A stretch of 64,000 nt of DNA from Hyphomicrobium facile (GTDB lineage: Bacteria; Pseudomonadota; Alphaproteobacteria; Rhizobiales; Hyphomicrobiaceae): assembly GCF_900116175.1 (NCBI RefSeq), contig NZ_FPCH01000002.1, positions 620,001 to 684,000 of the forward strand. Reading direction: 5' to 3'. Every line of letters begins with the position of its first letter. Positions within the stretch are counted from its first letter, which is position 1. The notes under the pieces are model-generated. The model was not told where the DNA came from and made no database searches. It worked only from the letters and a program-made list of their open reading frames with translations. Below are positions 40,079 to 45,318 of this stretch, piece after piece. The position numbers and the translations under genes were made by a program.

Positions 40079-40267
40079 CCCGGAATCCGGATGTCTTAAC
40101 GATCCCTTGCCGCACCGCAAAAAATCCGTTAAATCCTTCAATAGCCGACTGCTTTTGTGAAGGCCGCCGAACATTCTGCGGGCCGCCGACATCGCGACCT
40201 ATATGACGGGGGAAGGCGATAGTTACTTCAGGCATCGGCGGTGTCTTCCGGGGCGAAGGTGGCGATC

Positions 40268-41578
40268 ATGAATATTCACGACAAAGCTTCAAAGGGCGCG
40301 ACCAAGCCCAGCGCGACATTGACGGTCGACAACAAGCAGGTTCAGCTCTCGGTGCGTTCCGGTACCATCGGCCCTGACGTCGTCGACGTCGGCAATCTCT
40401 ACAAAGACACCGGCTGCTTCACGTACGATCCCGGCTTCACCTCGACGGCGAATTGCAAAAGCTCGATCACCTACATCGACGGCGATAAGGGCGAGCTGCT
40501 CTATCGCGGCTATCCGATCGATCAGCTCGCGGAAAATACCAATTTCCTGGCGGTCTGCTATCTGCTGCTCTACGGCGAGCTGCCGACGAACGGCGAGTTC
40601 ATCAATTTCCGCAAGACCATCACGAACCACACGATGGTTCACGAGCAGATGACGCGGTTCTTCACCGGATACCGGCGTGACGCGCATCCCATGGCGGTCA
40701 TGGTCGGAACGGTCGGCGCGCTGTCATCGTTCTATCACGACTCGACCGACATCAACGATCCGGCGCAGCGCGAAGTCGCGAGCCAGCGCATGATCGCCAA
40801 GATGCCGACGATGGCGGCAATGGCCTACAAATATTCGATGGGCCAGCCCTTCATCTATCCGCGCAACGATCTCGACTACACATCCAATTTCCTGCAGATG
40901 TGCTTCGCCGTTCCGTGCGAACCCTACGTCGTCAATCCGACCATCTCGCGGGCACTAGATCGTATCTTCATCCTGCATGCCGATCACGAGCAGAACGCCT
41001 CGACGTCGACGGTGCGGCTGGCCGGCTCCTCCGGCGCCAATCCTTTCGCGTGCATCTCGGCCGGCATCGCTTGCCTTTGGGGGCCCGCGCACGGCGGCGC
41101 CAACGAAGCTGCGCTGAACATGCTGAAGGAGATCGGCACGGTCGATCGCGTTCCTGAATTCGTGAAGCGCGCGAAGGACAAGACGTCCGGCTTCCGGCTC
41201 ATGGGGTTCGGCCATCGCGTTTACAAGAACTACGATCCGCGCGCCAAGGTGATGCAGAAGACCTGCCACGAGGTGCTCGATGCCCTCGGCCACAGGGACG
41301 ATCCCCTGCTCAAGGTCGCGATGGAGCTCGAGCGCATTGCGCTTCAGGACGAATATTTCATCGAGAAGAAGCTCTACCCGAACATCGACTTCTATTCCGG
41401 CATCACGCTCAGGGCGATGGGCTTCCCGGTCGATATGTTCACCGTGCTGTTCGCTGTCGCGCGCACGGTCGGATGGATCGCGCAGTGGAAGGAAATGATC
41501 GAAGATCCGGAGCAGCGCATCGGCCGCCCGCGCCAGCTCTACATCGGGCCGCCGCGCCGGGATTTCCCGGCCGCCTGA
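40268..41578 (+). CDS. gltA: Citrate synthase
   Basis: Condenses oxaloacetate and acetyl-CoA to citrate. 436 residues from ATG 40268, with AAGGTGG upstream; the 40241 start adds nine unsupported residues. Type II (hexameric, NADH-sensitive class) architecture with an N-terminal beta-rich domain. Catalytic segments include [20 protein letters not shown] near 245, [12 protein letters not shown] near 272 (His), and [14 protein letters not shown] near 316 (His). The 3' end overlaps the convergent lpxI-lpxB gene by 40 bases. Confidence 0.97.
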
Positions 41579-44007
41579 CCCGCGACAACCGAAAGCACGA
41601 CGTTAGCTGCCGCCTCGCTCGGACTCGAGGCGGTGAGGCGAAGCTTTTCCGGCGCCAAGCTTAGTCCATCGAGTTGCGCCGAGCGGGCATCGGTATCACC
41701 CAGAAGCGGCTCGATAGCGTTTGCCAGATTTTCGGCCGTGCACGCTTCCTGGAGATATTCGGGATAGACGTTCTTGCCGATCACAAGGTTGGCCAGAACC
41801 ACGCTCGGCACTTTCAACAGGAATCGCAGGTTCGACATTATCGCGTCGACCTTGTAGGCGACGACCGATGGCGTGCCCGCGAGCGCAAGCTCGAGCGTTA
41901 CGGTGCCCGATGCCGCGAGCGCTGCGCGCGCGAGGCGCATGGCGGCGTATTTATCGTCCGCGTCGATGATGTGCGGTTTCGGCGTCCATGTAGACGTCTT
42001 CGCGGCGATGCGGTCTCGCAGGTGGCGGACGGCCGGGATGACGACCTCGATCGGGCCCTTGGCGGATGAGACGCGCGCGACGGCCCCGCCGAACACGTCG
42101 ATCAGCCGCTCGACCTCCGATGTCCGGCTTCCGGGCAAGACGAGAAGAACTGGGCGATCCTGCGCGATACCGAGGCGCGACGCGAGGCTGCTCGCATCGG
42201 CATTCTGGATATCATCGAGCTTCTCGATCAGCGGATGGCCGACATACGTGCACGCGGGGCCGCCGAGACGCGCGTGCGCTTCGGGCTCGAACGGCAGCAG
42301 CGCCAAAACATGATCCACGTAGGGGCGCATTTTCTTCGCGCGTCCCGGCCGCCAAGCCCAGACGCTGGGACTGACATAGTCGAGGATCGGAATGTTCGGT
42401 GCGCGCTTCCTGATGCGCTTCGCAATCGGGTGCGTGAATTCAGGGCTGTCGATGATGACGACGACGTCGGGCGCGAATGCGACAGCCGCGTCGACGGTCT
42501 GATAGACGCGCCGCAGGATGCGCGGAAGCTTCGGCAATATGGACAGCGGGCCCATGACGGCCACGTCCTCGATGGGAAAGAGTGAACGGACGCCCTGCTC
42601 CGCCATCTCCTCTCCGCCGACGCCTGAGAAGTCGATGGGACCCGAATGCTGCTTCTCGAGTGCGCCGATCAGCTTGGCGCCCAACGCGTCGCCCGAGTGC
42701 TCACCCGCCACGAGAAAGATTTTCAATGGCTTCGGTCCTGATCCGAGGTTTGAAGTGGCAACGAACATCGCGGACCTGTTTGCCAACTGAATGACTGGGG
42801 AAGATTTTCCGAGACCGGAGCCGTTCGCCGTGATTGCGAGCCCGATCAGGTGAGCGCGTTGAGCTGCACCGATCAGTGCTTCATCGAGCTGGTGCTCTGG
42901 TCCGACGACCAAGACGCCACGGCGTCGCGTATTGGTGCCGCGAAGCGTTCGGACGCGTTCGACGACGGTCGTCGGTTCTTCCGAGGCGCCGACTGCGAGG
43001 ATGCGTCCGCCATCGATGACGACAGCCGAGCTGCCGCCGAACGATGTGAGTGCCGATAAGACGCCGCTCGCTCGTGCGATATCGGCTTCGGCTGAAGGAT
43101 TGATTGGATGTTCGCCCGCGGCGCGGACGCCGAGCTTCTGAGCTTCCCGGGTGCCGGGCTTGGTTTCCTCGGCCCGTATGCCCTGGACGAACAACCCTCT
43201 CTCATCGGCGAGCGCGATCATCTCAGAACGGTTGGCGGTGAGGACGTGATCGGCCATGACGGCGATGCCGCAAAGCCCGGCTGCATCGGCCTGGGCGACC
43301 GTATTCGGTCCGATCGCCGGCAGATCGACGCGAAGATCCTGGCCGGGCTTCGGACGCTTGACGAGAACGCCGTAACGTTCGCGATCGCCCCTCGCGTGGC
43401 GCGCTTCGGCGACGCGCTTCAGCATGCGGTCAGTACCTTCGGCGCCTTCGATCGCCTCGATGCGGCCGCGGCTCACCACCACCGCTTGGCCGATATCGTA
43501 CCGGCCGAGTGCGGCGACGAGATCGAAGCCGCGTGCGATGTCAGCTGCGTTTTCAGCCGAGGCGGAGGTTTTGGTCAGATTGCCGTCGCCGACGAGCAGC
43601 TCCGGCGCGACTTCATCGACGCCGACGATGCGAAGACCGAGCGCTTCGAATTGGGCGAGAACCCCGCGCAGTACGGCGTCGTCGCCGCCCGCTTTCAACA
43701 GCTTCACCACTGCCGGAGCGAGACGCAGAAAAGCGAGATCGGGGCGCGCGGTCAGAAACGAAGGACGGCGATAGCCGCCGAGCAGCAGCGCGTCACTGAT
43801 GCCGGCCCGCCTGAACGCCGCCATCGCGCGTCCGGGCTGAGCCCAGTTGACGACCGTATGTGGAAACGCGCTGAGCGCCGGATCGGCGGCGCCCTCCACC
43901 ATGACGATGTGAACCTCGCCGCCGCGGCGCGTAACACTTTGGGCGACTTCAAGAGGAAGCGAGCCTGCTCCAGCGATGATCCCGATGCGGTTCATCGGAT
44001 CGACCAT
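41539..44007 (-). CDS. lpxB: LpxI-LpxB fusion: UDP-2,3-diacylglucosamine hydrolase plus lipid-A-disaccharide synthase
   Basis: One uninterrupted frame of 822 residues from ATG 44007. Residues 5-285 are LpxI ([17 protein letters not shown] at the start, [23 protein letters not shown] near 174, [14 protein letters not shown] near 255), which removes UMP from UDP-2,3-diacylglucosamine to give lipid X. Residues about 325-420 look like a second, degenerate copy of the LpxI C-terminal domain ([13 protein letters not shown]...GVLVVGP...[15 protein letters not shown]). Residues 428-822 are LpxB ([51 protein letters not shown]), which joins lipid X and UDP-diacylglucosamine. So two consecutive steps are on one polypeptide. 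Eight bases after lpxA. The C-terminal 13 residues overlap convergent gltA. Confidence 0.88.
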
Positions 44008-44015
44008 GGGCGGTT

Positions 44016-44822
44016 TCAGCTCTCTTCGCCGTTCTTCGGCGTGCACAGCGATCGCTTGCCGCCCTGGCGAATGAACGCGAGGATTTCCTGCACGGAGGCG
44101 TGGCCCGCGAACTCCTCGGCGACGTCTTCCATGCGCTCGACCAGCGTGCCTTCAGCGGCGAACAGCAGCCGGTAGGCGCGGCGAAGATCGTGAATATCGT
44201 TGCGGGAGAAGCCACGCCGCTGCAGGCCAACGATGTTGAGGCCCGAAAGATAAGCGCGATTGCCGAGCGCCATGCCGTAGGGAATGAGATCGTTCTCGAG
44301 GCCCGACATGCCGCCGACGAAGGCGTGATGGCCGACGCGGGCGTACTGAATGACTGCGGCCCCGCCGCCGATGATCGCGAAATCGCCGACGTTGCAATGG
44401 CCCGCGAGCATGACGTTGTTCGAGAAGATCACCCCGTTGCCGACGTGGCAATCGTGGCCGACGTGGCTGTTGGCGAGAAATGCGCAGCCATCGCCGACGA
44501 CCGTCACCGAGCCGCCGCCGGCGGTGCCCGGGTTCATCGTCACGCCTTCGCGAATGATGCAGTCCGACCCGACAGTCAGCGAGCAGGGCTCGCCTTTGTA
44601 TTTCAAATCCTGCGGCTGATGGCCGATCGACGCGAAGGGGAAAATGCGCGTGCCCGAGCCGATCTCCGTCGTTCCGGCGACGACGACATGGCTCACGAGC
44701 TCGACGCGCTCGCCGAGCGTGACGTCGCGGCCGACGACACAGAAGGGCCCGACCTTCACGCCTGCGGCTATCTTTGCCCCGTCTTCGACGACGGCCGTCG
44801 GATGGACTTCCACTTCAGCCAT
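44016..44822 (-). CDS. lpxA: UDP-N-acetylglucosamine acyltransferase
   Basis: First step of lipid A synthesis: transfers a hydroxyacyl chain from ACP to the 3-OH of UDP-GlcNAc. 268 residues from ATG 44822 (the 44834 start is a TTG). A long left-handed beta-helix of hexapeptide repeats fills residues 1-185, with the catalytic-His region [19 protein letters not shown] near 117-135. The C-terminal helical domain begins at [16 protein letters not shown], the LpxA signature. Overlaps the fabZ 3' end by eight bases and is followed closely by the lpxI-lpxB fusion. Confidence 0.96.
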
Positions 44823-45318
44823 TTTGGCTCGCAAATGCGCGCGCGTCGGCGGTGTCTGCCAGCATGGCGCTGATTTCGGCCTCGGCCACGGTCTTGCCGT
44901 TGACCTTCGCTTCGCACTTGAAGCGCCACACGCGGCCGCGATTGCGGACCTTGCGTACGTGGTAGTGGAGCTGGTCGCCAGGGAGCACGGGTTTGCGGAA
45001 CTTGGCGTTATCGATGCCCATGAAATAGACGAGCTCGGCCTTGTAGTCGTGGCCGACGTTCGAGACGCAGAGCGCGCCTGCCGTCTGCGCGAGGCCCTCG
45101 ATGATGAGCACGCCCGGCATCACGGGAAACTGTGGGAAGTGACCTTGAAAGAACGGCTCGTTGATCGTGACGTTCTTGACGCCGACGCAGCTCTCGTCGG
45201 CATCCATATCGTACATCCGGTCGACCAGAAGGAACGGATAGCGATGCGGCAGGAGCTTCATCACCCGGTTGATATCCGCGGTGCCCAGGGTCTTGACCGC
45301 CGTTGCCTTGCCTTCCAT
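44815..45318 (-). CDS. fabZ: 3-hydroxyacyl-ACP dehydratase FabZ
   Basis: Dehydrates 3-hydroxyacyl-ACP in fatty-acid elongation and competes with LpxA/LpxD for the same substrate, which explains its place in this operon. 167 residues from ATG 45318, with GGAG nine bases upstream; the TTG at 45333 is not needed. Hot-dog fold with [12 protein letters not shown] near 23, then [23 protein letters not shown] near 64-86 holding the catalytic His and Glu. Confidence 0.96.

Follow-up and report, generated by a model that had tools for sequence, protein, structure and literature searches.

A 64,000-nucleotide stretch of the Hyphomicrobium facile genome (contig NZ_FPCH01000002.1, positions 620,001 to 684,000; hereafter the window) carries on its minus strand a gene of 822 codons, which begins at an ATG at position 44007, ends with a stop codon at 41539 and encodes a protein of 86.3 kDa. 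The longest mechanically derived frame starts 13 codons farther upstream, at a GTG at 44046 inside lpxA. A single frame holds, in this order, the N- and C-terminal domains of LpxI (LpxI_N and LpxI_C), a second LpxI_C-like domain, which we call domain X, and a complete LpxB (Table 1). LpxI produces lipid X from UDP-2,3-diacylglucosamine, and LpxB uses both compounds. The LpxI_N domain scored 109.6 bits and the first LpxI_C domain (copy 1) 160.1 bits against a Pfam cut-off of 25, and the LpxB part scored 297 bits with PF02684 (cut-off 22.6) and 237.4 bits with TIGR00215 (cut-off 190.25). The original prediction, made from the letters of the window, that LpxI and LpxB are joined in one protein was borne out: the domains exceed the Pfam cut-offs, and a survey of relatives revealed 10 more genomes of the genus with the same fused frame.

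Table 1. Features of the fused gene and its upstream neighbour (positions in the window)
Feature	Position	Strand	Basis or remark
Fused lpxI-X-lpxB	41539..44007	-	822 codons; 10 more genomes of the genus have this open frame
LpxI N-terminal domain, residues 7-137	43597..43989	-	Pfam PF17930, E 1.4e-31
LpxI C-terminal domain, copy 1, residues 141-274	43186..43587	-	Pfam PF06230, E 3.2e-47
Variable linker 1, residues 275-300	43108..43185	-	Low identity among fused genes
Domain X, residues about 301-420, lacking Q169, T187, D188 and K214	42748..43107	-	Sequence and predicted fold
Linker 2, residues 421-427, domain X to LpxB	42727..42747	-	Alignment of fused proteins
LpxB, residues 430-802	41602..42720	-	Pfam PF02684, E 2.4e-88; NCBIfam TIGR00215
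lpxA, same direction, directly upstream	44016..44834	-	Named by eye from sequence

In Caulobacter crescentus LpxI, residues Q169, T187, D188, K214 and T233 contact the substrate and D225 is the likely base, according to the part of PMC6286764 available to us. Alignment to the C. crescentus structure (4ggm) placed Q174, T192, D193, K217, D228 and T236 of copy 1 at positions Q169, T187, D188, K214, D225 and T233, respectively; across the family, the first five of these main catalytic and pyrophosphate/ribose-contact residues are present in 93 of 93 copies and T233 in 92. In the LpxB part, D520, W550, R628 and N740 correspond in the alignment to D98, W126, R201 and N316 of Escherichia coli LpxB. 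With the NCBIfam model NF047836, whose naming cut-off is 400 bits, the fused protein scored 220.6 bits, an ordinary LpxI of the order (G036) 246.9 bits and C. crescentus LpxI 487.9 bits; this cut-off seems not to be discriminating in this order. The genome holds one LpxB match, and a second LpxB was not found in it. A search of the genome with an LpxH model gave a sole match of 46 bits (cut-off 190.35), and a Caulobacter control matches the same model too. Because there is one LpxB match and the LpxH match lies far below the cut-off, the fused protein probably performs both steps.

What lies between the two enzymes? A second LpxI C-terminal domain had been proposed there, and several observations uphold it. 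First, Pfam reported two LpxI_C stretches in the whole protein; residues 286-427 searched alone reached 24.9 bits, just short of the cut-off of 25, whereas profile comparison with LpxI_C succeeded (99.8%, E 3e-29). Second, domain X has a confident predicted fold, and the structural similarity to LpxI was found in that its top Foldseek match is a solved LpxI (E 5.7e-8); the fold matches 4ggm. Third, the LpxI_C profile of other families matches 92 of the 94 domain X tails of this family at E 1e-3. The residues listed above for C. crescentus have largely disappeared from this domain: Q169 is kept in 4 of 93 sequences, T187 and D188 in 3 each, K214 in none and T233 in 2, and domain X of the window is not among the nine rows that retain any of Q169, T187, D188 and K214. 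Because these residues are mostly gone, domain X probably does not bind and cleave the substrate in the manner of LpxI. The earlier claim that the second copy is non-catalytic holds through the loss of Q169, T187, D188 and K214; the MADH-to-TANG change originally offered as the reason is not the reason. These counts are out of 93 rather than 94 because the wrong-frame tail of one genome (G118) was dropped from them, and from the motif and score comparisons below; it was included in the conservation of domain X, in a first residue count and in the domain X tree.

Did domain X arise together with the fusion? The distribution of the domain indicates that it did not. We searched 103 genomes of the family and could read LpxI in 97; in 94 of these, 121-207 residues follow the LpxI core, against 0-16 residues in 15 genomes from other families of the order. 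Two of the remaining three (G034 and G073) are cut by contig ends, and the third (G124) has an LpxI without domain X; among the 94, two are imperfect, G077 being cut within domain X and G118 having it out of frame. In 84 of the 97 genomes, the LpxI bearing domain X is on a frame separate from that of LpxB. In a survey of the order, no tandem domain X was seen outside the family among the matches listed for 240 LpxI_C-bearing genomes; the 10 genomes with two LpxI_C matches were all members of the family, from which 13 genomes had been sampled, the profile missing domain X in the other three. In the class survey of 202 genomes, among the matches listed, two LpxI_C matches occurred only in the genome of the window and in G622, where the copies are on different contigs. 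On this sequence evidence, domain X is a trait of LpxI across the family; the protein that carries it is in most genomes distinct from LpxB and encoded next to lpxB. A tree built with 30 of the 94 sequences placed domain X in one clade (99/99). The domain is older than the fusion and appears to have been derived once from LpxI_C.

A short motif shows a complementary pattern in the two copies. L/I-R/K-x-W stands ahead of the domain's final basic stretch in the LpxI of 5 of 15 genomes from other families and in none of the 93 family copies 1. The strict motif, L-R-x-W, occurs in 48 of 93 domains X; a tryptophan stands at the motif place in 72 of 93 domains X, 0 of 93 copies 1 and 5 of 15 LpxI of other families, and anywhere in the motif segment in 74 of 93, 2 of 93 and 8 of 15, respectively. 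Basic (R+K) and acidic (D+E) residues in the segment number 5.9 and 0.3 in domain X, which is more basic there than copy 1 (4.0 and 1.2) and the LpxI of other families (4.9 and 0.9). The two copies show complementary losses, copy 1 keeping the catalytic residues without the motif and domain X the reverse, and this pattern fits either an ancient duplication followed by complementary loss or a transfer from another family. Under a transfer, domain X would have been acquired and joined from the LpxI of another family rather than duplicated in place. In 78 of 89 genomes, domain X matches the LpxI_C of five other-family genomes (G036, G042, G045, G052 and G059) with a higher score than it matches its own copy 1; the domain X clade attaches nearest these five, with weak support; and L-R-x-W is common to both. 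However, an ancestral motif kept by domain X and lost by copy 1 predicts the same pattern, and the attachment is unsure because the domain X branches are long and the columns few. We regard a transfer as rather unlikely.

The fusion itself is confined to fewer genomes. Domain X-bearing LpxI and LpxB share a frame in 11 of the 22 genomes of the genus (in one, G011, the frame starts at a contig edge) and are separate in the other 11. The 11 fusions form one LpxB clade (96 in the Shimodaira-Hasegawa-like approximate likelihood ratio test, SH-aLRT) in a quick tree, without bootstrap, of 62 of 104 rows; over the whole tree, two changes explain the fusion, the second being G060, a single draft genome of another genus. 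The junction was read in ten split genomes of the genus: LpxB is in a different frame from LpxI and domain X in all of them, so that the fusion required an insertion or deletion at this point; a stop codon lies 23-65 bases ahead of the LpxB core in nine of the ten, and the junction of G008 has unread bases. The fusion was a later event than domain X, in one clade of the genus.

At least two further families of Alphaproteobacteria have direct LpxI-LpxB fusions that lack domain X. In f107, a family of small-genome Alphaproteobacteria, 27 of the 38 genomes with a match have LpxI_C within an open frame of 628-720 residues, the others being 10 genomes of one genus with short frames and one with a frame of 471. 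All eight long frames that were read (L154:820-2802, minus strand; L155-L160; L163) contain both domains, and both short frames that were read are split. In G584, a 675-residue direct fusion is located near a contig end (L136:10-2034, minus strand); its three relatives, judged by frame length, are unfused: LpxI and LpxB lie on open frames that differ in length. This was the one fusion among 20 class-level candidates chosen out of the listed long open frames; in one candidate (G396) the stretch read did not include LpxI. The fusion counts are lower bounds, being taken among the matches listed, with at most two candidates scored per genome in the class survey. Because split relatives exist, the fusions in the several families appear to be separate events, a deduction made from those relatives and not from a tree. 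Four further genomes that resembled fusions by frame length (G036, G041, G052 and G054) were rejected, as their DNA shows two frames with a stop between them, and so was G118 (868 amino acids), in which domain X is out of frame and the open frame continues up to the contig end.

Might the cell, despite the fused frame, still initiate a separate LpxB inside the linker, which would make the fusion cosmetic in part or in full? Candidate sites are present: a Shine-Dalgarno (SD)-like AGGA nine nucleotides ahead of a TTG at codon 428 in the genome of the window and in G013, G015, G018 and G020; AGGT-5-ATG at codon 414 in the genome of the window, with a matching place in G020; AGGAGG-11-ATG in G016; and GGAGG-5-ATG in G060. 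The SD matches at lpxB of the split relatives are overall no stronger, so weakness is no argument against internal starts. However, the best-spaced candidate in the window, a TTG, has an SD match of four bases, the frame has been kept open in 11 genomes of one clade, and the eight f107 fusions read join the two enzymes by only a few residues. We therefore think it unlikely that the fusion is cosmetic.

The ratio of nonsynonymous to synonymous substitution rates (dN/dS) was estimated with our own script by the Nei-Gojobori method in eight pairs of fused genes, which share genomes. It was 0.19-0.40 in domain X, 0.06-0.26 in the LpxI domains and 0.05-0.11 in LpxB; in the linker before domain X it ranged from 0.06 to 1.23 and was undefined in two pairs. 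In that linker (residues 278-302), the mean pairwise identity was 0.30 over 45 pairs of fused genes. Judged by these ratios, domain X is under purifying selection. A decaying remnant of a tandem duplication, with no current role, would account for the missing catalytic residues and for the lower conservation of domain X (mean pairwise identity 0.56 versus 0.78-0.84 for the enzyme domains). Such a remnant is nevertheless improbable in view of the retention of the domain in 94 of the 97 family genomes read, its dN/dS, its confident predicted fold and its well-conserved positions, among them D309 (0.97), G364 and A409 (both 0.93); R351 (0.87) is also well conserved. The relic that the original prediction had suggested is disfavoured on the same grounds; of its overall interpretation, the fusion and the apparently non-catalytic second LpxI_C domain stand, and the extra domain predates the fusion. 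An assembly artefact, with two genes wrongly joined or a false second domain, can practically be dismissed: G118, with domain X out of frame, exemplifies a doubtful case, and for the window we found no such sign, the same architecture being shared by 10 other members of the genus, of which two have single-contig genomes.

How might the fused protein work? We consider it reasonably probable that the polypeptide is a bifunctional enzyme for two consecutive steps of lipid A synthesis, in which domain X serves for docking or as a partner without catalytic activity. LpxI_N and copy 1 would hydrolyse UDP-2,3-diacylglucosamine to lipid X, which LpxB would then join to a further precursor molecule. 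The tether would fix LpxI and LpxB at 1:1 at the branch point of their shared substrate, and might shorten the path of lipid X and avoid its build-up. Domain X, derived once from LpxI_C before the fusion, has retained the fold, lost catalytic residues and remained under purifying selection; it may pack on copy 1 or on a neighbouring molecule as a dead partner, or alternatively dock at the membrane or on LpxB through its basic helix end, which bears L-R-x-W in most other genera. In the genus of the window, the fusion would have followed from an insertion or deletion at the short stretch where lpxI-X meets lpxB. More tentatively, and with somewhat less than an even chance, domain X could be a pseudo-enzyme domain that assumed a non-catalytic task of LpxI (docking to the membrane or to a neighbour, or dimer-like pairing), catalysis being left to copy 1, and that was later joined with LpxB in one clade.

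Several points weigh against this proposal. The structure prediction of the full-length protein was run and proved unusable, its mean predicted local distance difference test (pLDDT) score of 49.3 being too poor to give the domain arrangement, although domain X modelled separately folds confidently. Two sugar contacts of C. crescentus LpxI are changed in copy 1: T228 is A231 here (A in 64, T in 21 and V in 8 of the 93 family copies), and N74 is G78, at a position that is variable in the rest of the order too (N in 1 of 15). Loss of D225 from domain X cannot be claimed, given an aligned aspartate in 44 of 93 sequences; in 63 of 93, the loop is filled at only 7 of its 16 positions. Domain X evolves faster than the enzyme parts, the bootstrap of its tree had not settled, and internal LpxB starts in the fused gene are possible. 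Finally, strict L-R-x-W occurs in none of the 22 domains X of the window's own genus, which suggests that the role of the domain has shifted there.

To our knowledge, the route of lipid X from its producer to LpxB is not settled, and the abstract of the LpxI structure paper is said to have already suggested a multienzyme complex. Our literature search, from whose coverage subscription journals are mostly absent, found no paper on an LpxI-LpxB fusion or on the extra domain. The fold of domain X also matches ATIC/AICAR transformylase and the ADAT2/ADAT3 deaminases, which differ from it in their low identity (9-16%) and their chemistry. ATIC and ADAT2/ADAT3 use paired copies of this fold, and one copy is dead in ADAT3; it is by analogy with these proteins that the fold would support a dead partner. 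C. crescentus LpxI (4ggm, 4j6e) is likewise a two-domain hydrolase with the main catalytic residues in common, but it has one C-terminal domain, no domain X and no link to LpxB, and its N74 and T228 are the contacts changed here. Its gene, as here, lies between lpxA and lpxB, according to the parts of PMC6286764 and PMC3087551 available to us. E. coli LpxB (5w8n, 5w8s) is, like the LpxB part, a lipid A disaccharide synthase of the glycosyltransferase B (GT-B) fold with the four conserved residues given above; it is free-standing, whereas here the LpxB N terminus follows domain X. The fusions of f107 and G584 share the single frame for LpxI and LpxB and differ in lacking domain X, in their short join and in belonging to other families. 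The lpxC/fabZ fusion of Bacteroidetes, Chlorobi and Verrucomicrobia similarly joins neighbouring genes of the lipid A cluster, but it concerns other enzymes, and the part of PMC3087551 available to us does not mention a duplicated dead domain.

The repeated fusion of these two enzymes in several families suggests that contact between LpxI and LpxB is favoured, and the natural fusions are ready-made constructs for studying it. A dead LpxI domain found across a family, next to a first copy with complementary losses, is a natural experiment on the non-catalytic role of the C-terminal domain. If domain X is indeed a pseudo-enzyme domain, two tandem domains would divide the functions of one ancestral domain within a single chain, and the lipid A pathway would be seen condensing into a multienzyme protein.

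Some observations concern LpxB elsewhere and the surroundings of the gene. In genus g414 of f107 (L161 and L162), LpxB matches in two pieces separated by 75 residues, versus 21 in the query, as if about 54 residues had been inserted within the enzyme. Among the matches listed at the class level, G689 (C151 and C170), G752, G675 and G472 each have two LpxB matches at different places. In the window, fabZ and lpxD lie further upstream in the same direction as lpxA (named by eye from sequence), and a convergent gene at 40241-41578, a citrate synthase by eye, overlaps the 3′ end of the fused gene by 40 bases (41539-41578).
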